A stretch of 64,000 nucleotides of DNA, from NCBI RefSeq assembly GCF_005877005.1, contig NZ_SSNH01000001.1:1-64000 (forward strand), written 5' to 3'. Positions 9,213 through 23,345 of this stretch are shown here, piece by piece; within the stretch, counting starts at the first letter, position 1, and each line of letters begins with the position of its first letter. The stretch comes from Sinomonas susongensis. Its GTDB lineage: Bacteria; Actinomycetota; Actinomycetes; Actinomycetales; Micrococcaceae. A program made the translations under genes and the position numbers. The notes below the pieces were generated by a model that was not told the origin of the DNA, made no database searches, and worked only from the letters and a program-made list of their open reading frames with translations.

Positions 9213-10619
9213 TCAGGCCTCCTGCCGCCGTCGCCTCGCCAGTCCCGCAACGGCGGCCAGTGCGAGGACGGAAAGGGTGGTCGCTGCCCAGAATCCGGCC
9301 CGGCCCCCGACCGTAAAGTCGCCCGGGGCCGCGAACGCCGCGAAGGTCGAGGCGACGATGGCCAGTCCGACGGCGCCTCCGAGCTGCTGCATCGTCTGGA
9401 AGAGCCCGGAAGCTGCGCCAGCGTGCTCTGGCTCGACATTGCGCAGCGCGAGCGTCGTGAGCGGCATGAACGTCATTCCGGCCGAGATGCCCGTGGCCAC
9501 GAGCGCCCCGGCGACGAGGGCGAAGTTCGTGGTGGGGCTGAGCTGGGTGAGGGGCAGGAAGGCGACGACGCGCAGCGCGGCGCCGGCGATGACCAGCCGA
9601 ACTGCCCCCACCCTCTCGACGAGTCGCGGGATGACCCGGGACATCGCGAAGATGCTCAGGGGCATCGGAAGGAAGGCGAGCCCGGTCACGAGGGGCGTGA
9701 AGTGCAGTTGGTCCTCGAGGTATTGGACCATGAGGAAGAACATCGCCAGCATGCCGCCGTAGGTCGCGGCCATCGCCGCGAGTGCTCCAACCCTGCTCGG
9801 GCTCCGCAGGAGCTGCGGCCTGAGCAGGGGGTGGGGAACGCGTCGCTCGGTGAAGGCCAGGAGGCCGATGAGCAGTGCGCCGACGGCGATTCCGCCGAGG
9901 GTGCGGGTGCCGAACCAGCCGTAGTCGGGTGCCTGGATCAGGGCCCACACGATGGCGACGGCGCCGCCCGTTGCGCTGACCGCCCCGACGATGTCGAAAC
10001 GGCCGGGCGCGCGCGGGGTTTCGCCGACGAGTCGGGGCACGGCGATCAGCACAAGAAGGCCGATCGGCACGTTGATGAAGAGTGTCCACCGCCAATTGGC
10101 CGTGTCGGTCAGCACGCCCCCGAGGATGAGCCCCATGGCCCCGCCCATCGAGGCGATCGCCGAGAACAGGGCGAGGGCGCGATTGCGTGAGCCCTCATCG
10201 GGGGCGTTGGTCGTGATGAGGGCGAGCACGCTCGGGGCGGCGAAGGCTGCCCCGAGGCCCTGGAGGGCGCGTGCGACGACGAGGAGGGCGGGCGTTGTGG
10301 CCAGTCCGCCGAGGAGGGAGAAGAGCGTGAAGGCGGCCACGCCGATGAGGAACGTGCGGCGTCTGCCGACCACGTCCCCGATCCTCCCGCCAAGGAGCAG
10401 GAGGCCGCCGAATGCGACGGCGTAGCCGTTGAGGACCCAGCTGAGATCGGAGTGGGAGAAATGGAGATCGGTTGCGATGTGGGGGAGGGCCACGTTCACG
10501 ACCGTGGCGTCGAGGACGAGCATGAGCTGGGCGAGCATGACGAGCCAGAGGCCGATGTTGCCGCCCCGGCGCTTCGGGGTGGCCGAGTTGGGGGTGCGTG
10601 TCGCGGTGATGAGTGGCAT
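9213..10619 (-). CDS. MFS transporter, DHA2 (drug:H+ antiporter) family
   Basis: A 468-residue inner-membrane exporter of the EmrB/QacA type, expected to have 14 membrane helices. Visible signatures are LMLVLDATVVNVALPHIATDL in helix 1 (pieces), the motif-A stretch GGRIGDVVGRRRTFLIG and the motif-C-like GGAMGLILGGVLTD. ATG 10619 was chosen because upstream codons overlap the operator region and the divergent tetR. Divergent from and probably repressed by the TetR at 10726. Substrate is unknown. Confidence 0.88.
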   Translation of the reverse strand: MPLITATRTPNSATPKRRGGNIGLWLVMLAQLMLVLDATVVNVALPHIATDLHFSHSDLSWVLNGYAVAFGGLLLLGGRIGDVVGRRRTFLIGVAAFTLFSLLGGLATTPALLVVARALQGLGAAFAAPSVLALITTNAPDEGSRNRALALFSAIASMGGAMGLILGGVLTDTANWRWTLFINVPIGLLVLIAVPRLVGETPRAPGRFDIVGAVSATGGAVAIVWALIQAPDYGWFGTRTLGGIAVGALLIGLLAFTERRVPHPLLRPQLLRSPSRVGALAAMAATYGGMLAMFFLMVQYLEDQLHFTPLVTGLAFLPMPLSIFAMSRVIPRLVERVGAVRLVIAGAALRVVAFLPLTQLSPTTNFALVAGALVATGISAGMTFMPLTTLALRNVEPEHAGAASGLFQTMQQLGGAVGLAIVASTFAAFAAPGDFTVGGRAGFWAATTLSVLALAAVAGLARRRRQEA

Positions 10620-10650
10620 GAGGTGATGTCCTATTCGGCGTACACTAAAT

Positions 10651-10663
10651 GGAGAGATGCTCC
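10651..10663. promoter_or_regulatory. Operator half-copy near the MFS start
   Basis: GGAGAGATGCTCC resembles the stronger palindrome at 10676-10692 (outer GGAGA and CTCC kept). The centres lie 27 bp apart, which would suit two TetR dimers in the divergent promoter. Confidence 0.5.
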
Positions 10664-10675
10664 GATTAGAAATAT

Positions 10676-10692
10676 ACGGAGAGTGTCTCCGT
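10676..10692. promoter_or_regulatory. TetR operator in the MFS/tetR divergent promoter
   Basis: ACGGAGA-GTG-TCTCCGT, a perfect 7-bp inverted repeat with a 3-bp centre, between the divergent MFS gene and its TetR neighbour. Confidence 0.75.
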
Positions 10693-10725
10693 TTTGCAAC
10701 CGTCGGAAAGGGAGTAGTGGTTTCT

Positions 10726-11298
10726 GTGCGCGCTGACGCTCGCCGCAATCGGGATCGGATCGTCGAGGTCGCTCGTGGGCTCTTCCGGGCGAAGGGCTAT
10801 GACGCCGTCTCGATGGACGAGGTCGCGAAGGCCGCGGAGGTCGGCACCGGAACCCTCTACCGGCATTTCCCCACGAAGGAGGAACTCTACGACGCGGTTC
10901 TCGAGGCCTGGGCCGACCGTGTGAACGGGGCCGTCGACCGAGCGCTCTCCCTCGACGCACCGGCCCGTGAGCGCCTCTTGGCGTGGTTGCGCGACTTTGC
11001 CGGGATGCTGACGGAGCACAAGGGCGCGGCGGCGCGGATCACAGCCGCGCTCGGAGACGCCAGCTCTCCGTTCGCCGCAAAGTGCCAGACATACCTCGGC
11101 GCCAATGAGCGCATCATCGAGGGCCTGGCCTCGGCTGTGCGCCCGGGGGTGGAGGCCATGCAGATCAGCCGGCTCGTTGGCGGAGCAGCGGCGGTGGCGG
11201 ACAGCAGCGATCTTTCGCCCGACGCCCTCGCATCGATGCTCGAGATCGTGGCCGACGGGCTGCTCGTGCCTGAGGGCGCGAACCTCGCCGACCGGTAG
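10726..11298 (+). CDS. TetR-family regulator of the divergent MFS exporter
   Basis: A 190-residue TetR protein. It starts VRADARRNRDRIVEVARGLF; the helix-turn-helix follows (MDEVAKAAEVGTGTLYRHFPTKEEL, about residues 26-50). GTG 10726 sits 11 bases after AAAGGGAG; an upstream ATG at 10657 would translate through both operators and is unlikely. Its stop lies 3 bases from the stop of the convergent oligopeptidase gene. By position it represses the MFS gene and itself; inducer is unknown. Confidence 0.88.
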   Translation: MRADARRNRDRIVEVARGLFRAKGYDAVSMDEVAKAAEVGTGTLYRHFPTKEELYDAVLEAWADRVNGAVDRALSLDAPARERLLAWLRDFAGMLTEHKGAAARITAALGDASSPFAAKCQTYLGANERIIEGLASAVRPGVEAMQISRLVGGAAAVADSSDLSPDALASMLEIVADGLLVPEGANLADR

Positions 11299-11301
11299 GC
11301 G

Positions 11302-13509
11302 CTAGGCGGTCACCTCGCGGGCGCCGAGCCCGTCAGCGATGAACGCGTAGTCCCACGCCCGGTCCTTCCACTCCTCGTACCGGCCCGAGGCCCCGCCGTG
11401 CCCCGCGACCATCTCGGTCTTGAGCACGATCGGCTGCCCGCTCGTCGACGCCTCCCGCAGCGCCTGGACCCACTTGGCGGGCTCGACGTTCAGCACGCGG
11501 GTGTCGTTGAAGGAGGTCACTGCGGCGACTCGGGGATAGGCGGCGGGCCGCACGTTCTCGTAAGGCGTGTACGACCTCATGTACGCGTAGACCTCCGGAT
11601 CCTCGATCGGGTTACCCCACTCCTCCCACTCGAGGGCCGAGAGCGGCAGCTCGGGGTCGAGGATCGTCGTGAGGGCGTCCACGAACGGAACCTCTGCGAC
11701 CGCCACGGCGTATTTCTCGGGAGCGAGGTTGAGCACGGCCCCGATGAGGAGGCCGCCGGCCGAGCCCCCCATGCAGCCGATCCTCGCCGGGTCGGCCCAG
11801 CCCGAGGACACCACCCAGTCCGTCGCCGCGACGAAGTCGCTGAAGGTGTTCTTCTTGCGCAGCTTCTTGCCGTCCTCGTACCACCGGCGGCCGAGCTCCC
11901 CGCCGCCCCGGACGTGTGCGATCACGAACACGATGCCCCGGTCGAGCAGGCTCAGCCGTGCGATCCCGAAGGCGGGGTCCATGCTGACCTCGTAGGAGCC
12001 GTAGCCGTAGACCAGCGCGGGGTTCGTCCCGTCCGGGCGGACCGATGCGCGCCGAAGGACCGACAGCGGGACCTGGGTGCCGTCGTCGGCCGTGGCCCAT
12101 GCACGTTCAGCGACGTAGTCGTTGGGGTCGTAGCCACCGAGCACGGGGGTTTCCTTGCGCAGGAGCAGCTCGCCGGTCGCAAGGACGTAGTCGTAGATCC
12201 GCGGCGGGGTGAAGAACGAGGTGTACCGGAGGCGAGCGACGGGAGAGCGGTAGTCCGAAGAGCCCGCCCCCGCCGTATAGAGTTCCTCGCCGAAGGCTGG
12301 CTCCGCGAACGACGGCGCGCGCCCGCCGTCCGCGGCCCCGTCGCCTCCGAAGGCAAAGCCCAGGACGTCTTCGAGCCTCGCGAAGCGGACCGTTTCTATC
12401 GTGTCGCGCCGCAGCGAGAGGATGAGATGGGTCGAGGTGACGTCCGCGCCTTCGATCTTCACGGCGTCGTCATGCTCGACGACCGTGCGCCACTCCTGCT
12501 CGGCCGGGGGCTTCGCGAACTCGGCCAGGGGCGCCATCGAGACCATGTTGTTGAACGCCCGGCCGGGCTCCCGCCCGTGCGCTCCACGCTGCGGGCCGCC
12601 GTTGTGAACGAGCAGGACGTGGGCCTCGCCGTCGTGCTCGAAGACCTCGGCGCTGTGCAGGATGCGCTCGCTGCGGGGAACGAGGACCATGAGCTGGGCC
12701 GCGGGTGCGGCGAGGTCGAGGCACCGCGTCTCGCTGTACTCGGAGTTGCCGATGCCCACGAGCAGCCAGCGGCGATCGGACGAGAGGTCGATCGATGTCC
12801 ACTGGGCGACGTCGGCCTCCTCGTAGAGCACCTCGTCCTGGTCGACCGGCGTGCCGAGCGTATGGACACGGACCTGGAAGGGCCGCCACGACTCGTCGGC
12901 GACCATATAGAAGATCCGCCGCCCGTCAGGGGAGAACTCGAGCCCGTAGAAGACGCGCTCGATCACCTCAGGGAGGTGTTCTCCGGTGCGCAGGTCCTTG
13001 ATCCGCAGAGTGAACGTCTCGTCGCCCGAGTTGTCCACCGCGTACGCATAGAGGTGGCCGTCCCGCGTGAGCGCAGCTCCGCCTAGCGCGAAGAACGGGT
13101 GTCCCGCGGCCTCGGCGTTGCCGTCGAGCAGCACCTGCTCGCCGTCGAGCGGGACACCGGGGACGACGGCGGGCGGCGTCCAGACATCGGGCTCCGCTCC
13201 TACCCGGCAGTAGACCGGGTACTGGCTGCCCTCGACCGTGCGGGCGTAGTACCACCACTCGTCCAGCCGGCTCGGCACAGAGAGGTCCGTCTCCTGGGTG
13301 CGGCGCTTGATCTCGTCGAAGATCGCGTCCCGAAGGGGGCCTTGATCCTCGGTGGCCCGCTGGGTATACGCGTTCTCGGCCTCGAGATGCGCGACGACGT
13401 CCGGGTTGTCCTTGTCCCGCAGCCACTCGTAGGGGTCGACGAACACGTCGCCGTGGCGCTCGCGGCGCGAAGGAACCTTCCGGGCGACGGGCGGGACATC
13501 AGCACTCAT
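11302..13509 (-). CDS. ptrB: S9 family prolyl oligopeptidase / oligopeptidase B
   Basis: A 735-residue serine peptidase that cleaves short peptides after basic residues if it is a true oligopeptidase B. An N-terminal beta-propeller (about 75-420) is followed by the alpha/beta-hydrolase domain. The catalytic Ser is in CMGGSAGG (near residue 583) and the His in VAGHGGASGR near the C-terminus; HVRGGGELGRRWYEDGK is diagnostic for the family. Length fits PtrB (about 690-730). TAGGGT lies 6 bases before the ATG with no Shine-Dalgarno, a leaderless-type start. Probably cytoplasmic, as no signal peptide is seen. Confidence 0.92.
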   Translation of the reverse strand: MSADVPPVARKVPSRRERHGDVFVDPYEWLRDKDNPDVVAHLEAENAYTQRATEDQGPLRDAIFDEIKRRTQETDLSVPSRLDEWWYYARTVEGSQYPVYCRVGAEPDVWTPPAVVPGVPLDGEQVLLDGNAEAAGHPFFALGGAALTRDGHLYAYAVDNSGDETFTLRIKDLRTGEHLPEVIERVFYGLEFSPDGRRIFYMVADESWRPFQVRVHTLGTPVDQDEVLYEEADVAQWTSIDLSSDRRWLLVGIGNSEYSETRCLDLAAPAAQLMVLVPRSERILHSAEVFEHDGEAHVLLVHNGGPQRGAHGREPGRAFNNMVSMAPLAEFAKPPAEQEWRTVVEHDDAVKIEGADVTSTHLILSLRRDTIETVRFARLEDVLGFAFGGDGAADGGRAPSFAEPAFGEELYTAGAGSSDYRSPVARLRYTSFFTPPRIYDYVLATGELLLRKETPVLGGYDPNDYVAERAWATADDGTQVPLSVLRRASVRPDGTNPALVYGYGSYEVSMDPAFGIARLSLLDRGIVFVIAHVRGGGELGRRWYEDGKKLRKKNTFSDFVAATDWVVSSGWADPARIGCMGGSAGGLLIGAVLNLAPEKYAVAVAEVPFVDALTTILDPELPLSALEWEEWGNPIEDPEVYAYMRSYTPYENVRPAAYPRVAAVTSFNDTRVLNVEPAKWVQALREASTSGQPIVLKTEMVAGHGGASGRYEEWKDRAWDYAFIADGLGAREVTA

Positions 13510-13597
13510 GTTCCCACCCTAGCTATTCGCGCCCACCACGGAGTACGGCCTCGCGCACCACTGGTTTTCGGGGCGGGACCACTGAGACGGGCGTCGC

Positions 13598-14728
13598 TCA
13601 GTTTCCGTTGGCGAGATTGTTCGCGGCAACGTACTGGGGAACCGTGCCCTGCGCCATCGCAGTGGCGAGACCCGTTGTCGCGGCTTGGTTCAGGAGCACG
13701 ATCGACTGCCCGTCTGTCGACCAGCCAGTGCCGTTCGTCGGGAGTGTGAACGTCGTGATGTCCTTGGGCCGCACATTGACGAGTTCGACTCCCAGAGAGG
13801 CGACGGCGGAGGCGGTGAAGCCGGAATCCACGGTCAGATACGGCGAGAACCCGTTGACCGCATTCGCGAGGGTGATCGGGTTTGCGAGCGTCTGGGGCGT
13901 CGCGAGCTTCGACACGAGAGCCTTCATGAAGGCCTGCTGGTCACGCACGCGCTGGTAGTCCCCGTCCGCGAACGCGTAGCGCTCTCGGACGAATGCGAGC
14001 GCCTGTTCGCCGTTCATCGTCTGCGGCCCGGCATCGAAATGGATATCCGAGGTCTGGCTCGCCGTGAACGCCTTCGGGACGTTCACGGTGACCCCGCCGA
14101 CGGCGTCGGTGAGGCCCTTGAACCCTTCGAAGTCCACGAAGACGACGTGGTCGAGGCGCTGTCCGAGGAGCGATTCGACCGTCTGCACCATGAGCGGCAC
14201 CCCTCCGAACGCGAGCGCGGCGTTGATCTTCGCGGAACCGTGGTCCGGGATGGGGACCCACAGGTCGCGCATGATCGAGACGACGTAGACGTGCTGTCGA
14301 TCGGCCGGGATGTGGACGAGCATCATGGTGTCCGAGCGCTGGTCCGAGGGCGTCCCGGACTCGGCGGCTGCGCCCGTCGCCCCGCGGCTGTCCGAGCCCA
14401 CGAGCAGGATGTTCACCGCCGTCTTGCCGTCCGGCCCCGGACGGGGCTCGGCCGGACGCGACGACTCCTGCGGGAATGCATTCGGGATCTTCTTGGTGTT
14501 CCCGTCGAAGCTCTGGGAGAGGCTCCCGAGGTACACGATTGCCGCGACGGCCGCGAGCACGACGACGAGCAGCGCACCCAGCAGGACGAAGGTCGCGGTG
14601 CGCTTCTTCTTGCGTCGGGGCGTGTCTGCCGAGCGCCGCCTCGAGCGGGGTGCAGGAGCCGGAGTCCCCGCGCGGGAGGCGGAAGCGTCGGGCGCTTCGA
14701 CGGCGGGCTCACTCTCGTCGGGGTTCAC
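13598..14728 (-). CDS. LytR-CpsA-Psr (LCP) family glycopolymer transferase
   Basis: A 376-residue membrane-anchored protein. A basic, disordered N-terminus is followed by one membrane helix (about residues 46-70, FVLLGALLVVVLAAVAAIVY), then the extracellular LCP domain with NILLVGSDSRG, RSDTMMLVHI and SIMRDLWVPIP. LCP enzymes move undecaprenyl-linked glycopolymers onto peptidoglycan. The start is GTG 14728 with GTGAGG upstream. It is divergent from the PqqD/HprK-like/BY-kinase group and is one reason to link that group to surface polysaccharide. Confidence 0.93.
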   Translation of the reverse strand: MNPDESEPAVEAPDASASRAGTPAPAPRSRRRSADTPRRKKKRTATFVLLGALLVVVLAAVAAIVYLGSLSQSFDGNTKKIPNAFPQESSRPAEPRPGPDGKTAVNILLVGSDSRGATGAAAESGTPSDQRSDTMMLVHIPADRQHVYVVSIMRDLWVPIPDHGSAKINAALAFGGVPLMVQTVESLLGQRLDHVVFVDFEGFKGLTDAVGGVTVNVPKAFTASQTSDIHFDAGPQTMNGEQALAFVRERYAFADGDYQRVRDQQAFMKALVSKLATPQTLANPITLANAVNGFSPYLTVDSGFTASAVASLGVELVNVRPKDITTFTLPTNGTGWSTDGQSIVLLNQAATTGLATAMAQGTVPQYVAANNLANGN

Positions 14729-14822
14729 GGTGCCTCACTTCTCGGGCCGGGCGGCGGATACTATCAGTCTGCCCTGAGGGCTGGCTGGGAGCCGTTGGGC
14801 GGCTCTTGGGGAAGGGGGAATG

Positions 14823-15113
14823 ATGCCGATCTGGCGCAGAAGCAGCTCGGTTGCCGAGGTCCTCGGCGAGGGAGGCGAGCGGGTTGCGCTGCTCAATCTG
14901 TGCGCGAACAGGCCCGTCGTCCTGAGGGGTCCGGCTGCGGTCATCTGGTCGCTCATCGACGGGGTCCGCAGCGAAGGGGACATGCTCGCCAAGTTGCGTG
15001 AGGACTATGGGACGGCCGCTCCGCCCGATCTCGAGGTGCAGCTCGCCACGTTCCTCCGCGAGCTCGCCGAGCAGGGACTCATCGGGGCGCTCGTCACGGA
15101 GCCGGCTCCGTGA
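14823..15113 (+). CDS. PqqD-like small protein
   Basis: A 96-residue protein of the PqqD fold (Pfam PF05402). ERVALLNLCANRPVVLRGPAAVIWSLIDG is the characteristic stretch in which a short beta hairpin leads to a Trp-containing helix. Family members bind a leader peptide or chaperone another protein. Two adjacent ATGs exist (14820, 14823); the second has better spacing from GAAGGGGG. It overlaps the HprK-like gene by 4 bases (GTGA), so the two are translationally coupled. No precursor peptide gene was found beside it, so a role in protein-protein contact with the kinase is more likely than peptide modification. Confidence 0.7.
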   Translation: MPIWRRSSSVAEVLGEGGERVALLNLCANRPVVLRGPAAVIWSLIDGVRSEGDMLAKLREDYGTAAPPDLEVQLATFLRELAEQGLIGALVTEPAP

Positions 15114-16330
15114 GGCTGCGCATCCTCGGTGCGTCGGTCTCGGTCGTCTTCGAGGCGGGGCTCAACGCGGCCGAGCGGGCCGAGCTGCGGCAGGCGTGGT
15201 CTCGGTGCCTCGAGGGCGGCGAGGCGGAGGGGGAGGCGGCGCCGTCCGGTCACGTAGGAGTCTGCGAGGCCAGCCAGGCCCGGACCAATAGCATCCAGAG
15301 CAGTTCCCGTCCCTTCCGAGCTCGCATCCTGGCCGGTTCCGGCCCCGGTTACGTGCCGGTCTCGGGCGGATCGTTCCAGCACTTCTCAGCCGAACTCACG
15401 AGTGCCCTGACGTTGGCCGCCATCGAGCAGCGCGGCGGCGAACTGATCATGCTGCACGCGTCGGGGCTCGCGGATCCGGGAACAGGCCGAACGGCTGCGC
15501 TCGTCGGGCCTTCCGGCGTGGGCAAGACGACCGCGACGCGCGCCCTCGCCCGGAGGATGGGTTACGTGACCGACGAGACGGTCGGCGTCGAGCCCTCGGG
15601 CGCGGTCGTCCCGTACGCGAAGCCGCTCTCGGTCATCGTCGACAAGCCGCCTGCCCCGAAACGGCAGCTCGGCCCGGACGCGCTCGGCCTCCTCGTCACG
15701 CCCGCCCAGACGCGGCTCGGCGCCGTCGTTCTGCTCGAGCGCGCCCCCGCCCAGAGTTCACGGGCACCCGAGGTCCGCCCGCTCGACCATGCCGACGCCA
15801 TCGTGGGGCTCGCGCCGCACACGTCCTCCCTCGCGATGCTGCCAGACCCGCTCCAGCGGATCTGCCGCATGCTCGATGCCTGCGGCGGGGCCGTCCGAGC
15901 GGTCTACAGCGAGGCCGATGACCTCGCGGGCCTCGTGCCCGGGCTCCTGTCCCGGCCCGCCGTCGACGGCGGGTGGGTGCCCGCCGTCGACCGTTCCGCC
16001 CGACTGCGCCAACCGGCTCATCTGCACAGGGCCGACGTCGACAGGGCTCGTCTGCACAGGGCTCATCTGCACAGGGCCGACGTCGTCGATGCCGTCGAGA
16101 TCGCGACCCCGGGAAGCGGCAGGACCGAGCTCCTCGTCATGGTCGGGCAGCAGGTTCTGCGGCTCGGGGGCATCGCCCCGGCGATCTGGCGTGGCCTGCG
16201 CACGCCCACGGGGCTCGAAGGCCTGGTCGACCGGATTGCCCCCGAGGTCGGGCTCCCGCCGGACTACGAGGGAGCCCTCGAACGCGCGGTGGAGGAGCTC
16301 AGTGACTACGGGGTGCTCACACGGAGCTGA
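15110..16330 (+). CDS. HprK-like P-loop kinase with pentapeptide repeats and a PqqD-like C-terminus
   Basis: A 406-residue protein with a mosaic layout. Residues 1-120 are weakly conserved; 131-141 hold a Walker A loop (VGPSGVGKTT) and 153-160 a VTDETVGV loop like the acidic loop of HPr-kinase-related proteins. Residues 301-325 read as pentapeptide repeats (AHLHR ADVDR ARLHR AHLHR ADVVD). Residues 345-406 resemble PqqD again (QQVLRLGGIAPAIWRGL... ending DYGVLTRS). HprK-related kinases with PqqD partners are known from exopolysaccharide clusters of other phyla; the substrate is unknown. GTG 15110 overlaps the upstream stop. Confidence 0.65.
   Translation: MRLRILGASVSVVFEAGLNAAERAELRQAWSRCLEGGEAEGEAAPSGHVGVCEASQARTNSIQSSSRPFRARILAGSGPGYVPVSGGSFQHFSAELTSALTLAAIEQRGGELIMLHASGLADPGTGRTAALVGPSGVGKTTATRALARRMGYVTDETVGVEPSGAVVPYAKPLSVIVDKPPAPKRQLGPDALGLLVTPAQTRLGAVVLLERAPAQSSRAPEVRPLDHADAIVGLAPHTSSLAMLPDPLQRICRMLDACGGAVRAVYSEADDLAGLVPGLLSRPAVDGGWVPAVDRSARLRQPAHLHRADVDRARLHRAHLHRADVVDAVEIATPGSGRTELLVMVGQQVLRLGGIAPAIWRGLRTPTGLEGLVDRIAPEVGLPPDYEGALERAVEELSDYGVLTRS
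16016..16089 (+). repeat. 15-bp coding repeats encoding pentapeptides
   Basis: Near-identical DNA units built on GCTCATCTGCACAGG and GCCGACGTCG repeat in frame inside the HprK-like gene. They encode A-(H/D/R)-(L/V)-x-R pentapeptides. The high DNA identity suggests recent slippage or duplication. Confidence 0.65.
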
Positions 16331-16346
16331 GATCGGCCGGGTTTAG

Positions 16347-17900
16347 ATGAACCTTGTGCAGAATTCACTCCAAGGCGACAACCCTGCGGGCGGTCAGGGC
16401 ATGAACCTCGCGGACTACCTCTCGGTGGCGCGCACGTACTGGTCCGGGATCCTGGTCTTCGTTGTCGTCGCCACGGCGGGGGCCTTCGGCTGGTATCACG
16501 TGCAGCCCCGTGTCTACGAGGCCCAGTCGAACGGAATGGTCGTCACAGGCGGCTCGGAGAACCTCAACCTCTCGCTCGCGGGGGACAACCTCTCGAAGTC
16601 CAAGGCGAAGGGCTACCGCTCGCTCGCCGACTCCCTCCTCGTGGCGGAGCGCGTCATCAAGACGCTCGGCATCAGCACGTCGCCGCAGGCGATCGCCGGC
16701 ACCGTCAAGGTCGTCGTCCCGGTCGACTCCGCGGAGCTGCAGGTGACTGCGACGTCGTCGGACCCGGTCCAGGCGAAGGAAGTCGCCGATGCATGGGTCT
16801 CGGCGCTCGCGGCGCAGGTGTACGAGATCGAGAAGTCGATGTCGACCTCGGGGGCGGACCCGGCCACGAAGGTTGTTCCGCTCGCGAAGGCCGCTGTCCC
16901 GAGCGCGCCGATCTCGCCGAACCTTCGGCTCGCGCTCGGCGCCGGTGTCGCGGGCGGGCTTGTGCTCGGGCTCGCCTACGCGCTCGTGCGCAATCTGCTG
17001 GACCGGCGAATCAGGGCCGCCGCGGAGATCGAGCGGCGCTTCCACGTGCCGGTCGTGGGAACGCTGCCGCGGGACAAGCGCCTCGTCGGAGAGACCCGCA
17101 TCCTCGACGTCCATGGCGCGGGCGCCGGGCACGCGATGGGCGAGGCGCTCCGGGAGCTGCGGACGAACCTGCACTTCATCGATGTCGACAGCCCCCCGCG
17201 CGTCCTCCTGGTGACGAGCTCGCTGCCATCCGAGGGCAAATCGACGGTCATCGGGAACCTCGCTGCAACCATTGCCGCGGCAGGTGAGGATGTCATCGTC
17301 GTGGACGCAGACCTGCGCCGGCCCACCGGGCACAAGGTCTTCGGGGTCGTGGGGGACGTCGGCATGACGGACGTCCTCACAGGCCGCGCGACGATCGAGG
17401 AGGTCCTGCAGGAGTGGGGCCCGATGCCGCACCTCAAGATCCTCGCGGCGGGCCGGATCCCGCCGAACCCGTCCGAGCTGCTGGGCTCCCGCGCGATGCA
17501 GCACCTCCTCGAGGAGCTCTCGCAGCGCGCCGTCGTCCTCATCGACACCCCGCCGCTGCTGCCGGTCACCGACGCCGCGGTCCTTTCCCGTGCGGCGGAC
17601 GGAACGCTCGTCGTCGCCCGGGCGCGGAAGACGACGACGGACAGCCTCCAGCGCGCGCTCGGGAACCTGGCCCGCGTGCGGGGGCGGGTCCTCGGCGTCA
17701 TCCTCAACTGCGTCGCGACGAAGGGGCCGGACACCTACAGCTACGGCTACTACGGGACGTACTCGAGCAGGCCCGAGCGCCGCAGGGGCTGGCTCGGGGC
17801 GAGCCATGGGAACAGGGGCACCGCCGGCGCGGACGACGCTCAGGGCTCGTCTGCGCCCGAACCCGTTCCGGCATTCAGGGGCAGGCGTTCGGCGAACTGA
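16347..17900 (+). CDS. Wzz/CpsD-type polysaccharide co-polymerase with bacterial tyrosine kinase domain
   Basis: A 517-residue fused chain-length regulator and BY-kinase. The Wzz-like part has helices near 30-50 and 190-212 flanking an extracellular loop. The cytoplasmic kinase has Walker A TSSLPSEGKST (290-300), Walker A' VIVVDADLRRP (about 318) and Walker B VVLIDTPPLLP. A tyrosine cluster at 464-472 (DTYSYGYYGTY, five Tyr) is the expected autophosphorylation site. ATG 16347 has a weak ribosome site; ATG 16401 is an alternative. It follows the HprK-like gene by 16 bases. Its last 61 bases overlap the convergent phosphatase gene. No glycosyltransferases or Wzx/Wzy lie here, so its polymer is made elsewhere. 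Confidence 0.9.
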   Translation: MNLVQNSLQGDNPAGGQGMNLADYLSVARTYWSGILVFVVVATAGAFGWYHVQPRVYEAQSNGMVVTGGSENLNLSLAGDNLSKSKAKGYRSLADSLLVAERVIKTLGISTSPQAIAGTVKVVVPVDSAELQVTATSSDPVQAKEVADAWVSALAAQVYEIEKSMSTSGADPATKVVPLAKAAVPSAPISPNLRLALGAGVAGGLVLGLAYALVRNLLDRRIRAAAEIERRFHVPVVGTLPRDKRLVGETRILDVHGAGAGHAMGEALRELRTNLHFIDVDSPPRVLLVTSSLPSEGKSTVIGNLAATIAAAGEDVIVVDADLRRPTGHKVFGVVGDVGMTDVLTGRATIEEVLQEWGPMPHLKILAAGRIPPNPSELLGSRAMQHLLEELSQRAVVLIDTPPLLPVTDAAVLSRAADGTLVVARARKTTTDSLQRALGNLARVRGRVLGVILNCVATKGPDTYSYGYYGTYSSRPERRRGWLGASHGNRGTAGADDAQGSSAPEPVPAFRGRRSAN

Positions 17901-18535
17901 CGCCGTTCCGCCTCTCTCAGCGAGGCGCGGCTCTCGCCCGAGGGGGCGCGGCGGCGCCGGCGGGGGAGAGCTGCGCGGATCAGCGCGCTGACGGGTGGGA
18001 TGAGCTCCTCGGCCATGCGCTCGTAGGCAGAGGCGTCGAGCCCGAACGGATCGGCGACGTCATTGAGCGACGGGTCGTCGAGCCGTACTTGATGTCGCAC
18101 CCTCTCGCCGTCGACGACGTACCGCCGCCACGCGTCCGCGACGGTCTCGCGGGTCGAGGGTCCGGGCAGGATCTCGACGATCCGTGCGAACTCGCGGAGG
18201 GTGAACGTGCGCTTGAGCACCGAGGGCGCGAGCGCGAGGACGGGGCCACGATGCTCCTCGGCGAGGATGAGCACGAGAGCCGCCTCTTCGAGATGCCGCT
18301 GCGTGAGCTGCCGAGCCTCGAAGGCCTCGAGGCTCGAGCCGAGTCGAGCCGCAAGCTCGGCCGACCTCGGATGGGCCGGCTGCCCTGCGAGTGCTCTGAC
18401 GCCAGCGCTCGTCACGGCGAAAACCCCGGGAGCGGCCTCGTCCAGGCCGGACTGCAGCAGCCGCTCGGCCAGCGGGGACCGGCAGATGTTCCCCGTGCAC
18501 ACGGTGAGGATTCGGAAGGGGGATCCTTCGCTCAT
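17840..18535 (-). CDS. Low-molecular-weight protein-tyrosine phosphatase
   Basis: A 231-residue phosphatase with the catalytic loop VCTGNICRSP at residues 12-21 (Cys13, Arg19). The C-terminal region includes DPFGLDASAYERM, the expected position of the general-acid Asp, plus a basic tail longer than the usual 150-190 residues. It probably removes phosphate from the BY-kinase encoded on the opposite strand; such kinase/phosphatase pairs control polysaccharide export. It lies 4 bases after the signal peptidase gene on the same strand and overlaps the kinase gene by 61 bases tail to tail. ATG 18535 has GAGG 3 bases upstream. Confidence 0.9.
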   Translation of the reverse strand: MSEGSPFRILTVCTGNICRSPLAERLLQSGLDEAAPGVFAVTSAGVRALAGQPAHPRSAELAARLGSSLEAFEARQLTQRHLEEAALVLILAEEHRGPVLALAPSVLKRTFTLREFARIVEILPGPSTRETVADAWRRYVVDGERVRHQVRLDDPSLNDVADPFGLDASAYERMAEELIPPVSALIRAALPRRRRRAPSGESRASLREAERRQFAERLPLNAGTGSGADEP

Positions 18536-18539
18536 CGCC

Positions 18540-19290
18540 TCACGCTAGCATCCCCACCCGCCACAGTGGCCAGACCCTGAGCGCCACCCGCCCGACGACG
18601 GCGGAGGTCGGCGCCGTGCGCATGCAGGGGTCGGGTGGGGACTGGCCCCGGCAGGCCGCCGCCGAGTCCGCGGATGCGGAGCGATGGTCGCCGAGCAGCA
18701 CGAGCTCACCCGACGGCACCGTGAACGCGCGGAAACAGCGGGCAGAGCGCGGTGTCGTCGAGCAGTCGAGCACCCGGGGCACGAACGGGAGGTTGAGCGT
18801 GACGTACGGCTCGTCGATCCCACGCCCGTCGCGTTCGAGGCGGCCGTCCGCATCGCAGCACGAGATGGTCTGGCCGCCCCGGGCCACGATCCGCTTGACG
18901 AGGTAGCTCCGGTTCGAAGGGCCGATGCCGGTGAGGTCGCCGAACGCGCGCACAAGAGCAGGAGCCCCGCCGGCGGGGCCGCTGCCTGCGCCGTCGTCTG
19001 CCTTCGATCCGTCGTCTGCCTTCGATCCGTCCCATCCCGCGGGCCGCGTCACGACGACGACGTCGCCCACCTGGGGGGGCGCGGCCGAGGAACGTGGACA
19101 GGCGGTCGGCGAGGAACCAGTCACCGCCGTGGGGGCCGCCGTGAAGAGTCGGTTCCATGGAGGCGGAGGGCACCCGGTACAGCTTCACGAGGAACGCCTG
19201 AACGAGCGAGACCACGAGGACGGCGATGAGGGCATGGGCCGCGAAGCGCAGCCAAGCGGGCACCTCCTTGCGCTGTTGGCGGGGGGTCAT
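18540..19290 (-). pseudogene. lepB: Signal peptidase I interrupted by a frameshift
   Basis: Type I signal peptidase (Sec/Tat leader cleavage at the membrane) split over two frames. Frame 1 gives the start ATG 19290, a membrane helix (residues 15-37) and the catalytic-serine motif PSASMEPT (Ser44). Frame 2 gives QVGDVVVVTRP, the lysine motif SYLVKRIVARGG and LVLLGDHRSASADS. The frames meet at a run of seven C (plus strand G7, 19073-19079); one extra C would restore a continuous protein of about 250 residues. All catalytic motifs survive, so a sequencing error or a phase-variable tract is as likely as real decay. An 18-bp in-frame duplication (GSKADDGSKADD) lies near 18992-19031. The start has TACGTT 6 bases upstream (leaderless type). 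Confidence 0.85.
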
Positions 19291-19387
19291 GCGGCGAACG
19301 TAGCAGTGGAGGTGGACACGGAGGGCGCTTCTGCTGCCCTCTGCGTAGGCTCCACGGACGGCTTGACGCCCATTGCCCTGTCCACAT

Positions 19388-19409
19388 ATTCTGAACGAAC
19401 GGTCGGTAA
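19388..19409. promoter_or_regulatory. PaaR-type operator upstream of paaA
   Basis: Reads ATTCTGAACG then AACGGTCGGTAA. Fifteen of 22 positions agree with the reverse complement of the site before paaI (9143-9164). It ends 17 bases before paaA, overlapping the expected promoter. The nearby GAACGAACGG is part of the same site. Confidence 0.65.
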
Positions 19410-19426
19410 TTATTTGAGGAGGAGCT

Positions 19427-20422
19427 ATGGCAGCTGCGCCCCTGCAGCCCGTGGCCGCCGAAGCATCCGAAGAGGATCGCGCAGGCCAGGCAGCATTTGA
19501 CCGCATCATCGCCGACGACTCACGCATCGAGCCCACGGACTGGATGCCGGAGGCGTACCGCAAGACACTCACGCGCCAGATCTCCCAGCACGCGCACTCC
19601 GAGATCATCGGCATGCAGCCGGAGGCCAACTGGATCACGCGCGCCCCGAGCCTCAAGCGCAAGTCGATCCTGATGGCGAAGGTGCAGGACGAGGCCGGCC
19701 ATGGCCTCTACCTCTACTCCGCAGCTGAGACGCTCGGCACCCCACGCGACGTCCTGAACCAGCAGCTGCTGGACGGCAAGGCCAAATACTCGTCGATCTT
19801 CAACTATCCGGCGCGCAGCTGGGCGGATATGGGAGCGATCGGCTGGCTCGTCGACGGCGCAGCGATTGCGAACCAGGTCCCGCTGTGCCGGGCAAGCTAC
19901 GGCCCCTACGGACGCGCGATGGTGCGGATCTGCAAGGAGGAGTCGTTCCACCAGCGGCAGGGCTTCGAGATCCTGCTCGAGCTGTCCCACGGCACCCCCG
20001 AGCAGAAGAAGATGGCGCAGGACGCCGTCAACCGCTTCTACGCACCTGCCCTCATGATGTTCGGGCCGCCCGACGACGACTCGCCCAACTCGAAGCAGTC
20101 CATGGCCTGGAATATCAAGCGGTTCTCGAACGACGAGCTGCGCCAGCGCTTCGTCGGCATGATCGCCGAGCAGGTCAAGGTCCTCGGCCTCACCCTCCCC
20201 GACCCGGAGCTCCGCTTCGACGAGGAGACGGGCAAGTGGATCCATATGGAGCTCGACTGGCAGGAATTCAAGGACGTCATCGCGGGCCGCGGCCCGTGCA
20301 ACGCCCAGCGCCTTGAGCGCCGCCGGGAGGCGCACGCCAACGGCGCCTGGGTGCGCGAGGCCGCCCGTGCCTACGCGCAGAAGGCAGGGCAGCGGAAGAT
20401 GCAGAAGGCAGGTGCAGCCTGA
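19427..20422 (+). CDS. paaA: 1,2-phenylacetyl-CoA epoxidase, catalytic subunit A
   Basis: A 331-residue di-iron oxygenase subunit that epoxidises phenylacetyl-CoA. The ferritin-like carboxylate-bridged iron site is visible as [17 protein letters not shown] (E-x-x-H) and [16 protein letters not shown] (E-x-x-H). Length equals typical PaaA. A strong GAGGAGG lies 7 bases before the ATG. First gene of paaABCDE, with the operator immediately upstream; overlaps paaB by one base (TGATG). Confidence 0.97.
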
Positions 20423-20730
20423 TGAGCAATCAGCCGATGGGCAATCAGACCAACATCTGGCCCCTCTGGGAGGTCTTCGTGCGCTCGAGCCGCGGCCTCT
20501 CGCACGTCCACGCCGGCTCGCTGCACGCACCCGACGCCGAGATGGCGCTGCGCAACGCCCGGGACCTGTACACGCGTCGCAACGAGGGAGTCTCGATCTG
20601 GGTGGTCCCCTCCGAGGCGATCACGGCATCGGACCCGGACGCGAAGGGCTCGTTCTTCGAATCCCCGCAGGGCAAGGACTACCGCCATGCGACGTACTAC
20701 ACCAAGAGCGAGGGCGTGAAGCACCTGTGA
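20422..20730 (+). CDS. paaB: 1,2-phenylacetyl-CoA epoxidase subunit B
   Basis: A 102-residue small subunit needed for the multicomponent epoxidase. WPLWEVFVRSSRGLSHVHAGSLHAPDAEMALRNARD is the family core (pieces), with NEGVSIWVVPSEAI following. It overlaps paaA by one base and paaC by 4 (GTGA), so stoichiometric translation is likely. Confidence 0.95.
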   Translation: MSNQPMGNQTNIWPLWEVFVRSSRGLSHVHAGSLHAPDAEMALRNARDLYTRRNEGVSIWVVPSEAITASDPDAKGSFFESPQGKDYRHATYYTKSEGVKHL

Positions 20731-21608
20731 ACGCCGCTCCTACACCCTCCCACCCCGCCCGAACCGACCATTCCCTCGACAGCTTCGGCGACGCCGCGGC
20801 GTCGGCGACCCGGGTAACCCCGGGCAACGCCCTGCGCCCGGAGGACATCGCGATCCAGACCGAGCGCCCGAGCGACGACGTCGCCCAGTACGCGCTGCGC
20901 CTCGGCGACGATTCCCTTGTCCTCGCCCAGCGGCTGGGCGAGTGGATCTCGCGCGGTCCGGAGATCGAGGAGGACATCGCACTCGGCAACATCGCCCTCG
21001 ACCTCCTCGGCCACGCCCGCTCGTTCCTCACCTATGCGGGCCACGCCTGGGGCAAGTCCGAGGACGACCTCGCCTACTGGCGGGACGAGGAAGAGTTCCG
21101 CTCCGCGTGGATCTTCGAGCAGCCCAACGGCGACTTCGGCGTGACGATCGCGCGGCAGCTCGTCGTCGCCGTCTACCAGTGCCTCCTCTACGCACGGCTC
21201 GTCGGGTCGGCGGACAGCACGATCGCGGCCATCTCGGCGAAGGCGCTCAAGGAAGTCGACTACCACCGCGACCACGCAATCCAGTGGACGCTCCGCCTCG
21301 GCGACGGCACCGATGAATCGCACCGCCGCATGCAGGCGGCACTCGAGCTCATGTGGCCCTACGTCGACGAGCTGTTCGACGACGACGAGCTCGTCGAGCG
21401 CGTCGGCGAAGCCGGGGTCCGTCCGTCGACGCTCCGCGCCGAGTTCGACGCCGAGATTGCAGCCGTCCTCGACGAGGCCACACTGACCCTGCCCGCCGTC
21501 CCGCGCGCCCGCGGCGGCGGACGCCGCGGCGAGCACACCGAGCACCTCGGCTACCTGCTCGCCGAGATGCAGGTGCTCGCCCGCAAGCATCCCGGCGCGA
21601 CCTGGTAG
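20727..21608 (+). CDS. paaC: 1,2-phenylacetyl-CoA epoxidase, structural subunit C
   Basis: A 293-residue partner of PaaA with the ferritin-like fold but without a complete iron site in the family. Family stretches are ALRLGDDSLVLAQRLGEWI, NIALDLLGHARSFLTYAG and ALKEVDYHRDHAIQWTLRLGDGT (pieces). The GTG start overlaps the paaB stop. A 50-residue N-terminal extension before EDIAIQTERP is longer than in E. coli PaaC and looks disordered. Confidence 0.94.
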   Translation: MNAAPTPSHPARTDHSLDSFGDAAASATRVTPGNALRPEDIAIQTERPSDDVAQYALRLGDDSLVLAQRLGEWISRGPEIEEDIALGNIALDLLGHARSFLTYAGHAWGKSEDDLAYWRDEEEFRSAWIFEQPNGDFGVTIARQLVVAVYQCLLYARLVGSADSTIAAISAKALKEVDYHRDHAIQWTLRLGDGTDESHRRMQAALELMWPYVDELFDDDELVERVGEAGVRPSTLRAEFDAEIAAVLDEATLTLPAVPRARGGGRRGEHTEHLGYLLAEMQVLARKHPGATW

Positions 21609-21636
21609 AAACGCGAGCTGACAGAAGGAGCTGCCG

Positions 21637-22128
21637 GTGATCACGACCGACGACGACGTCGTCGCCCTCGCGGCGACCGTGAACGACCCTGAGATCCCAG
21701 TCCTCAGCATCCGGGACCTGGGGATCCTTCGCGACGGGCACCTCGAGGACGACGGCGCGGTGCGGCTCACCATCACCCCGACCTACTCGGGCTGCCCCGC
21801 CATGGACGCGATCCGCGACGACCTCGAGCGCGTCTTCCACGAAGCGGGGCACGAGCGGGTCCAGGTGGACCTCGTCCTCTCCCCGGCCTGGACCACGGAC
21901 TGGATGACGGAGGAGGGCAAGGCCAAGCTCGAGGAGTACGGCATCGCCCCGCCCACCGGCGGCTCCAGCCTCCACGCCGGACCGGTACGCCTCGGCCTTG
22001 CGGTCAAATGCCCCCGCTGCCACTCGCTCAACACACGCGAGCTCTCCCGCTTCGGCTCGACGTCCTGCAAGGCGCTCTACGTCTGCCAGGACTGCCGTGA
22101 ACCCTTCGACTACTTCAAGGTGCTGTAG
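21637..22128 (+). CDS. paaD: PaaD, phenylacetyl-CoA epoxidase maturation/accessory protein
   Basis: A 163-residue protein with a DUF59/MIP18-type domain (VNDPEIPVLSIRDLGIL, TPTYSGCPAMDAIRDD) and a C-terminal zinc-ribbon-like CPRCHSLNTRELSRFGSTSCKALYVCQDC. It is thought to help iron-sulfur loading of PaaE. GTG start with AAGGAGC upstream. The 3' end carries an imperfect direct repeat with the bases before paaE (GACTACTTCAAGGTGCT and GACTTCGAGGTGCT). Confidence 0.94.
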   Translation: MITTDDDVVALAATVNDPEIPVLSIRDLGILRDGHLEDDGAVRLTITPTYSGCPAMDAIRDDLERVFHEAGHERVQVDLVLSPAWTTDWMTEEGKAKLEEYGIAPPTGGSSLHAGPVRLGLAVKCPRCHSLNTRELSRFGSTSCKALYVCQDCREPFDYFKVL

Positions 22129-22148
22129 ATGACTTCGAGGTGCTCCCT

Positions 22149-23345
22149 ATGACCGACCAGCTGACCGAGGACGCAGAGGCGACCGGCCGCCGTCGGGCGT
22201 CCTTCCACCCGCTCGTGGTGACCCAGGTCCGCCGTCTGACGAACGACGCGATCGAGGTGACGTTCGCCGTCCCGGCTGAACTCGCCGATGAGTACGACTA
22301 CATTCCGGGGCAGTACGTCGCGCTCCGAGCCCACGTTCCCGGCGGGGGTGTCGACGGCGAGGCCAGGGAAGTCCGCCGCAGCTACTCCATCTGTGCCCCG
22401 CCGCAGCGCTTCGCCGACGGCGGCAGCGAGATCCGGGTTGCGATCAAGAAGGACCTCGGCGGCCTCTTCTCGACGTGGGCCAACGAGCACCTCGCCCCCG
22501 GCGACACGCTCGACGTCATGAGCCCGGCCGGTGCTTTCATCTCGAAGCACAGGATGACGGGCCTCAACGACCCGACGAGCATCGACACGGACCGCGAGCA
22601 CACCTTCGTCGCCGTTGCGGCAGGCTCGGGCATCACCCCCGTCATCGCGATCGCGAAGACCGTCCTCGCCGCGGACGAGAACGTCCGCTTCGACCTCATC
22701 TACGCCAACAAGGCTGCAATGGACGTCATGTTCGTCGAGGAGCTCGCCGACCTCAAGGACAAGTACCCGTCCCGCTTCGCGCTCCACCACGTGCTCTCGA
22801 GGGAGCAGCGCATCTCGCCGCTGCTCTCCGGCCGGGTCGACGCCGAGAAGCTCACGACGCTGCTCAACACCGTGATCCACGCCGACGACGTCGACGAGTG
22901 GTTCCTGTGCGGGCCCTTCGAGCTCGTCCAGCTCGTACGGGACACGCTCTCGGAGCGCGGGGTCGAGCCGGAGAAGGTCCGCTTCGAGCTCTTCACGACG
23001 GGCACGCCGTCCAATCTCGAGGGGAACATAGGGCGCCCCGTCGTCGAGGACGACTCGGGGAAGAACTTCGACATCGAGTTCCGCCTCGACGGGCTGCAGG
23101 GAGTGGTCAAGAGCCCGGCAGCCGCGAACGAGACGATCCTCAACGCGGCGCTTCGCGTGCGCGCGGATGTCCCCTTCGCGTGCGCCGGCGGCGTATGCGG
23201 CACGTGCCGCGCGAAGCTCGTGGAGGGCACGGTCGACATGGCGGAGAACTACGCACTCGAGCCGGACGAGCTCGAACGCGGGTACGTCCTGACGTGCCAG
23301 TCCCGCCCGACGTCGGACGCCGTGTCCGTCGACTTCGATGCCTGA
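22149..23345 (+). CDS. paaE: 1,2-phenylacetyl-CoA epoxidase reductase subunit E
   Basis: A 398-residue electron-transfer subunit. The N-terminal FAD-binding ferredoxin-reductase domain has RRSYSICAPP (about residues 78-87) and the NAD(P)H-binding GSGITPVIA. The C-terminal plant-type 2Fe-2S domain has CAGGVCGTCRAKLVEG plus a later Cys (LTCQS). It moves electrons from NADPH to PaaA. ATG 22149 has GAGG 9 bases upstream; GTG 22140 is less likely. Confidence 0.95.
   Translation: MTDQLTEDAEATGRRRASFHPLVVTQVRRLTNDAIEVTFAVPAELADEYDYIPGQYVALRAHVPGGGVDGEAREVRRSYSICAPPQRFADGGSEIRVAIKKDLGGLFSTWANEHLAPGDTLDVMSPAGAFISKHRMTGLNDPTSIDTDREHTFVAVAAGSGITPVIAIAKTVLAADENVRFDLIYANKAAMDVMFVEELADLKDKYPSRFALHHVLSREQRISPLLSGRVDAEKLTTLLNTVIHADDVDEWFLCGPFELVQLVRDTLSERGVEPEKVRFELFTTGTPSNLEGNIGRPVVEDDSGKNFDIEFRLDGLQGVVKSPAAANETILNAALRVRADVPFACAGGVCGTCRAKLVEGTVDMAENYALEPDELERGYVLTCQSRPTSDAVSVDFDA

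Follow-up and report, generated by a model that had tools for sequence, protein, structure and literature searches.

A kinase and RRE gene pair of Sinomonas and its association with exported proteins that carry a WxxP signal motif

Two overlapping genes in the first 64,000 nucleotides of contig NZ_SSNH01000001.1 of Sinomonas susongensis (assembly GCF_005877005.1; this whole stretch is called the window below) encode a small PqqD-fold protein and a larger kinase that itself ends in a second PqqD-like domain. The locus raises the question of what is acted on by a kinase that both carries and is paired with a RiPP recognition element (RRE; RiPP, ribosomally synthesized and post-translationally modified peptide). 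A first-pass annotation saw in the pair a possible small phosphorylation module that acts on polysaccharide export, and named the neighbouring BY-kinase as a substrate to try. We find that in Sinomonas three other elements track the kinase better, namely a nucleotidyltransferase of family PF14907, a dedicated signal peptidase of family S26 and exported proteins whose twin-arginine signal contains a WxxP motif. The pair, the PF14907 enzyme and the S26 peptidase probably form a gene set that acts on these WxxP-signal proteins and that Actinomycetales encode within or close to exopolysaccharide loci.

Genes and signals that accompany the pair

Among 15 Sinomonas genomes, the kinase was detected in eight (E 9.3e-72 or better), and the other seven gave weak partial matches only. 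The PF14907 nucleotidyltransferase was present in all eight carriers and in none of the seven non-carriers. The same 8/8 versus 0/7 division was observed for the dedicated S26 paralog (201-601 bits), which stands apart from two further S26 genes held by all 15 genomes (69-111 bits, the best of these at 110.5), and for the WxxP signals, found at E <= 1e-6 in 18 proteins of the same eight carriers, with a best E of 0.015 among the other seven. As a control, the generic TAT_signal model matched all 15 genomes at E <= 0.1 and exceeded its cut-off in 13 of them. The BY-kinase followed another pattern: its ortholog is kept, together with the phosphatase, at the same site in five of the seven non-carriers (L187-L191), a site flanked by a prolyl oligopeptidase gene and paaA, and no PqqD, kinase or S26 gene was found there in these five genomes. 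The BY-kinase is thus separable from the module in Sinomonas, and we rejected it as an obligate partner for this genus.

The partners are not all close to the pair. The 64-kb window contains neither a PF14907 match nor a WxxP-signal gene at E <= 1e-6. The PF14907 gene of this genome (55.8 bits, cut-off 31.2) lies 244 kb from the pair, within a polysaccharide cluster about 227-244 kb from the kinase that also holds a WxxP protein (L258), a sugar transferase, glycosyltransferases, NeuB and Wzy_C, as well as an epimerase-like gene, a label read from its first residues only. In all eight carriers, one WxxP gene is located 17-37 kb from a PF14907 gene on the same contig. In five of seven fetched Sinomonas loci (L150, at 10446-10823, L151, L152, L155 and L156), the gene immediately upstream of PF14907 encodes a small protein (113-138 aa as called), and the one that was scanned had no Pfam or NCBIfam match. 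One Sinomonas also contains a second, divergent kinase locus (L035, G002:C1:3012501-3032500), which encodes a separate BY-kinase and phosphatase as well as a WxxP-like protein and has two genes of the PF14907 type.

The coupling of kinase and signal extends over the order. In a sample of 297 order genomes, searched at E <= 1e-10 with the kinase profile and at E <= 1e-5 with the WxxP signal profile, each was detected in 58: 53 genomes had both, five the kinase only, five the signal only and 234 neither (Fisher 1e-46, phylogeny ignored), so that the signal occurs in 53/58 kinase-positive versus 5/239 kinase-negative genomes. By genus (94 sampled), 21 had both, one the kinase only and none the signal only. 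At least 23 of the 53 genomes pair a WxxP match with a kinase within 3 kb. PF14907 (E <= 0.001) was found in 51/58 kinase-positive and 39/239 kinase-negative order genomes. In a phylum sample, 8 of 296 genomes matched the kinase profile at 1e-10, two of them strongly (327 and 526 bits, both within the order) and six partially at 43-63 bits; the WxxP signal was found in 2/296, the same two that have the strong kinase match.

We scanned the DNA of named genomes and took the best 80 of 157 relatives, from Sinomonas, Arthrobacter, Pseudarthrobacter, Rathayibacter, Microbacterium, Herbiconiux, Kocuria, Knoellia, Nocardioides and other genera; 64 of these 80 loci span at least 20 kb, and L114 and L115 seem to be the same region present twice. 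An RRE was present in 78 loci, fused to the kinase in 74 and discrete in 40 (six of the latter weak, at 22-40 bits). A WxxP-signal protein is encoded in 47 of the loci, in 42 of them within 1.5 kb of the kinase, and a PF14907-type nucleotidyltransferase in 44. A BY-kinase was found in 64, a tyrosine phosphatase in 37 and a sugar-phosphate transferase in 31, and many Pseudarthrobacter loci share the gene order exported protein, PqqD, kinase, BY-kinase, nucleotidyltransferase and GalU. The polysaccharide setting proposed by the first-pass annotation is therefore real, as the BY-kinase, sugar-phosphate transferase and GalU genes at the kinase loci attest. Export or the BY-kinase as the likely target was not supported, in light of the Sinomonas comparison above.

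The exported proteins encoded next to the kinase belong to several families, with the signal peptide in common and the mature domain not always so. Their signals follow the consensus RR-x7-A-W-x-x-P-x-[IVL]-x6-P-x-x-A-A-S. We built a 37-position profile from 19 signals taken at kinase-positive loci and counted the motif in 128 unique signals (134 before duplicates were merged; the Trp-less L250 was dropped). RR and W were required at signal extraction, so that the RR count of 128/128 holds by construction, and the profile also favours the motif. With this in mind, Pro was found at W+3 in 128 signals, Ile, Val or Leu at +5 in 120, Pro at +12 in 127, Ala at +15 in 107, Ala at +16 in 111 and Ser at +17 in 118, and nothing was conserved after that position. 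In a less circular check, all 17 non-seed proteins gathered from the fetched loci by mature-domain similarity alone carry both WxxP and the serine. Such residue-specific conservation within the signal core suggests a dedicated reader. The WxxP proteins would be exported through the twin-arginine translocation (Tat) route and are probably surface or matrix proteins.

Besides the protein in the distant polysaccharide cluster, the window genome encodes two more WxxP proteins, of 499 and 540 aa, the former with an RCC1-like match of 38.7 bits (cut-off 150). None of seven WxxP-type proteins exceeded a cut-off in NCBIfam. For one WxxP protein of Sinomonas, a modest model of the mature domain shows a beta-sandwich (pLDDT 72.9; best Foldseek match TTHA1873, E 8.4e-4), with further weak matches of the adhesin, cohesin and BslA types that are too weak to name a function. 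WxxP-protein paralogs with a degenerate signal, in which the hydrophobic core or RR is gone, were seen in L081 (6117-6854), L084 (6162-6926) and L091 (7865-8578), the last of which keeps WSVP.

Folds of the two proteins and a probable tryptophan pocket

Standard family models miss the kinase, since TIGR04352 (HprK-related kinase A) gave 17 bits against a cut-off of 200 and PF07475 had no match at E <= 1. The first-pass annotation had read an HprK-like protein with a Walker A loop and acidic residues, and had set the predicted fold as its own test. An AlphaFold2 model built from a 15-row alignment (pLDDT 87.8, pTM 0.85) matched PEPCK (1.8e-4) and HprK/P (3tqf, 7e-4) in Foldseek, and VIA-align superposed 244 residues on PEPCK with a Z of 13.5 and an rmsd of 4.5. 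By the match of this predicted model to solved members, the kinase is of the HprK/PEPCK fold. H116, G136, G138, K139, T141, D155, E156, K171, P172 and K184 are identical in 95/95 homologous rows, which include several from the same genomes; Asp155 and Glu156 are presumably the catalytic or metal residues, by analogy with HprK. As to anti-phage defence, PADLOC gave a single weak match, to mad8, which reached 20.3 bits and covers the region of the P-loop.

Between the kinase domain and the C-terminal RRE lies a linker that had been read as five pentapeptide repeats. We rejected a pentapeptide-repeat domain because PF00805 reached 11.6 bits against a cut-off of 20.2 and the linker is unconserved and of low confidence. 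The underlying DNA is a minisatellite of 15 bp x 4.2 (16015-16077, Tandem Repeats Finder, TRF), residues 300-316 have pLDDT below 50, and in the family alignment the kinase relatives have other repeats, or none, at this place. What had been taken for pentapeptides is thus a disordered linker, encoded by a minisatellite and not conserved. In-frame, species-specific short tandem repeats also occur in the linkers of the L022, L023 and L027 kinases and in the PqqD protein of L027 (9200-9724). Some kinase matches contain an in-frame TGA; in L061, the stop comes after a short kinase without an RRE tail.

Both RRE domains, the small protein and the kinase tail, were recognised as PqqD-like by the first-pass annotation, and both assignments hold. 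The discrete protein matched PF05402 with 37.5 bits (cut-off 23.4) and gave 19.3 bits with TIGR04353, the HPr-rel-A PqqD model (cut-off 35). Its family profile retrieved TbiB1 (1.5e-8), PbaB1 (4.3e-5) and LppB (7.1e-4) from the PDB. The kinase tail scored 16.6 bits with PF05402, under the cut-off, while its profile matched TbiB1 (5.6e-5), LppB (9x8z, 4.2e-4) and PbaB1 (9x90, 0.0014), and Foldseek likewise found the lasso RRE TbiB1 (E 0.15, probability 0.98).

According to a report on linear polyphosphorylated peptides (LPP), a class of RiPPs (PMC13381572), RREs bind [Y/W]xxPx[L/V/I/F/A], with Trp held by E75 and Q79 of PbaB1 next to F83, and Tyr by D70 of LppB. The WxxPx[ILV] segment of the signals fits this motif. 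In the discrete RRE family, the place of F83 is Phe in 20/20 rows and that of Q79 is Gln in 17/20 (Glu in two, His in one); the window protein has D70, Q74 and F78 at the three pocket positions. Since Gln and Phe are kept at two of the three places, a pocket of the Trp type is favoured, in agreement with the Trp of the signals.

A tentative pathway, its rivals and its relatives

The gene set itself is well supported, by the phyletic coupling, the folds, the conserved motif and the part of the pocket that are seen directly. For its action, we infer the following steps and their order. The discrete RRE would bind the WxxPx[ILV] segment within the twin-arginine signal of a pre-protein. The HprK-fold kinase would phosphorylate Ser W+17, the conserved residue with which the signal ends, beside the cleavage site, and the PF14907 enzyme may put a sugar on the phosphoserine. 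The dedicated S26 peptidase would remove the signal next to this Ser, possibly aided by the RRE, which would present the site to it, and the matured product would reach the cell surface along with the polysaccharide. Taken in this chemical detail, RRE-guided modification and maturation of secreted proteins is a nearly balanced proposition that we place slightly on the doubtful side. Still more tentatively, it may constitute a new sorting or modification class, in which RREs read a WxxP tag inside twin-arginine signals and direct the kinase and nucleotidyltransferase to full-size secreted proteins, where a Ser close to the signal would be (poly)phosphorylated and glycosylated; if so, the modification could join secreted proteins to the polysaccharide of the same loci.

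LPP clusters offer a close parallel. According to the LPP report, they lie in capsule loci of Bacillota and comprise an HprK-like kinase, a discrete RRE, an uncharacterised nucleoside triphosphate (NTP) transferase, LppS and an MsbA-like transporter; LppK puts several phosphates on Ser3 beside the cleavage site, the signal-peptidase-I-like LppS cuts the leader and requires the RRE LppB for this in the assay, and the precursors, of 35-200 aa, have a conserved N-terminus and a variable C-terminus (PMC13381572). The same report states that LPPs are restricted to Bacillota and that their biological role is unknown (PMC13381572). The Sinomonas system likewise has a discrete RRE co-encoded with an HprK-like kinase, an NTP transferase (the PF14907 gene of the same genome, 244 kb off) and a signal peptidase, in polysaccharide loci, and an aromatic-xxP motif followed, at a comparable distance, by a Ser beside the cleavage site, which is a predicted one here. 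Pro and the cleavage site are 12 residues apart in LPP; here the figure is 12 or 13, according to which AxA is taken for the site. The distance from Pro to Ser is 15 in LPP and 14 here. It differs in its actinomycetotal host, in a W rather than Y motif placed inside a twin-arginine signal, in candidate substrates that reach about 540 aa and are scattered over the genome, and in a second RRE fused to the kinase. The candidate substrates read WxxPx[IVL]...PxxAAS and not the LPP precursor motif YxxPxVLxHQxIxFETxxS, no search for a Y-type precursor having been made. On present evidence, the system is not LPP by the two tested features, peptidase type and precursor motif, but works like one.

Several observations weigh against an action of the gene set on WxxP-signal proteins through an RRE. 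The peptidase differs in type: that of LPP is SipW-like or archaeal, whereas the S26 enzyme here is bacterial, the S. gamaensis ortholog scoring 93.9 with TIGR02227 (bacterial; cut-off 47), 19.6 with TIGR02228 (archaeal; 51.85) and 11.7 with the SipW model (190). In the window genome, this dedicated S26 gene is frameshifted between about 19071 and 19082 on the minus strand, at a run of seven G, which leaves the catalytic N-terminal part and the remainder in different frames and may reflect sequencing error, decay or phase switching. An S26 gene is near only 23 of the 80 kinases, and the locus DNA lacks a WxxP gene for 33 of the 80, five of them from Sinomonas and seven from Rathayibacter. At the order level, five of the 58 kinase-positive genomes lack a detected signal (G140, G154, G195, G221 and G276), and five genomes have a signal and no detectable kinase (G045, G108, G122, G135 and G253), a relaxed search giving weak partial P-loop-type matches only; PF14907 is absent from seven of the 58 positives and present in the 39 negatives given above. 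The significance of the co-occurrence is overstated because the genomes are related and the signal profile was seeded from kinase-positive loci, and the Sinomonas split may represent a single evolutionary event. Regarding the pocket, the place of PbaB1 E75 is variable in the discrete RREs (Glu 7, Gln 6, Asp 2, others 5; acidic in 9/20), and the fused RRE has Ala at the place of the pocket Phe, F74 of LppB. Without this Phe, the fused RRE may serve to anchor the kinase in the complex instead of reading the tag. Finally, WxxP residues that lie in the hydrophobic core of a signal might be there for export or cleavage only.

This last point leads to the alternative that survives best, which we consider unlikely: WxxP would be a mark for the dedicated S26 peptidase or for export alone, and the kinase and RREs would act on another peptide or protein of the loci. 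The kinases without a nearby WxxP gene are in line with it, and S26 and WxxP signals, too, co-occur in the eight carriers and in none of the seven other Sinomonas. Against this, the near-invariant signal residues coincide with the RRE motif, the Gln and Phe of the Trp-type pocket are kept, and it is the WxxP gene that is often close to the kinase (42/80), S26 being in the locus DNA far less often. The view of the first-pass annotation, a serine kinase module with control of the BY-kinase or of polysaccharide export as its role, is quite improbable. The BY-kinase is indeed frequent at the loci, and its gene often comes immediately after that of the kinase, yet its ortholog persists in the five module-less Sinomonas, other partners follow the kinase more closely in that genus, and RREs are known as leader-peptide binders. 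Least probable, and very unlikely, is a conventional linear, LPP-like RiPP pathway for a small secreted peptide, with the WxxP proteins as precursors or a short precursor missed: the enzyme set equals that of the lpp clusters, and LPP precursors are likewise conserved N-terminally and variable C-terminally, whereas two of the three WxxP proteins of the window genome are the 499- and 540-aa ones, a beta-sandwich is predicted for the mature domain of the third, and WxxP proteins are scattered, with 1-12 matches per genome, and bear signal peptides. The first-pass annotation had regarded a consistent link to a RiPP cluster as counting against it; the partner set is indeed that of LPP, yet it is found in polysaccharide loci. 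No small peptide precursor was recognised, no systematic search for one having been made.

The proposed system has further relatives to be compared with. Pathways of paeninodin-type phosphorylated lasso peptides (PadeK, PsmK, PsmN) share the combination of kinase and nucleotidyltransferase and the Trp-type RRE motif with the Gln and Phe of the pocket (PbaB1). They differ in their macrolactam synthetase and transglutaminase-like peptidase, neither of which was found among the 25 window open reading frames (ORFs) scanned with Pfam (about 7.3-36 kb), so that the first-pass annotation was right, over this range, to see no lasso machinery. In a review, the nucleotidyltransferase homolog PsmN is reported to add hexose to the phosphoserine of the lasso peptide, an indirect route being left open, and the kinase modifies a C-terminal Ser (PMC9266682). 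HPr kinase/phosphatase and PEPCK share the fold, P-loop and acidic pair; the kinase here has an extra N-terminal domain and the RRE tail. The HPr-rel-A pair (TIGR04352/TIGR04353) also combines a kinase with PqqD in a polysaccharide setting, and differs in that both of its models remain under cut-off here. Exosortase/PEP-CTERM-like sorting uses one machinery in a polysaccharide locus for several scattered substrates with a short tag and shows phyletic pairing. The present system shares the single machinery, the scattered tag-bearing substrates and discovery by phyletic pairing; its tag is N-terminal, within the signal peptide, and it has a kinase and RREs, not a transpeptidase. In a literature search with subscription papers and preprints outside its scope, RRE and twin-arginine occurred together only in a hot-spring metagenome study; PMC13381572 was the only hit for HprK-like kinases and related terms, and the HPr-rel-A names gave none.

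These findings take RREs, known as handles of peptide natural products, to a second phylum, where a tight phyletic pairing ties them to the signals of full-size secreted proteins. They suggest that exported proteins, and not RiPPs alone, may be modified by way of RRE-guided phosphorylation. Orphan exported actinobacterial proteins thereby gain a candidate processing machinery, and the HprK, PqqD and NTP_transf_5 genes of polysaccharide loci a testable role.

Features of the window

The two genes of the pair share a 4-base overlap, as first annotated, with the ATG of the PqqD gene three bases upstream of the start at 14823 given then. The third-position GC of both ORFs is of the coding type (0.86 for PqqD, 0.87 for the kinase). 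The flanking LCP, BY-kinase and tyrosine phosphatase genes had been named correctly and the S26 gene had been missed. The LCP gene is the divergent neighbour of the pair in all seven other Sinomonas carriers (L021-L027).

Table 1. Coordinates of the gene pair, its protein features and its neighbours in the window.
Feature	Position	Strand	Evidence
Discrete RRE (PqqD-fold adaptor), 97 aa	14820..15113	+	PF05402
HprK/PEPCK-fold kinase (predicted model) with C-terminal RRE domain, 406 aa, GTG start	15110..16330	+	AlphaFold2, Foldseek
Walker A loop GPSGVGKTT, kinase residues 133-141	15506..15532	+	Conserved in homologous rows
Asp155-Glu156 of the kinase, invariant	15572..15577	+	95/95 rows
Variable linker of the kinase with minisatellite	16007..16066	+	Low pLDDT, TRF, unconserved
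C-terminal RRE domain of the kinase, residues 320-406	16067..16327	+	Profile versus PDB
BY-kinase/chain-length determinant fusion	16347..17900	+	TIGR01007, 165 bits
Low-molecular-weight tyrosine phosphatase (LMW-PTP)	17840..18535	-	PF01451, 83 bits
S26 signal peptidase paralog, frameshifted	about 18540..19290	-	
LCP glycopolymer transferase, divergent neighbour	13598..14728	-	PF03816, 162.6 bits

No RNA element reached the Rfam gathering level at the locus (13000-20000), and promoter and terminator scans found nothing. Further downstream in the window, phenylacetate catabolism genes (PaaA/C-type, PaaD and PaaE-type; 19427-23345) adjoin the polysaccharide-regulation genes, likewise in other Sinomonas, and a 562-aa protein with an HNH endonuclease domain is encoded at 25702-27390.

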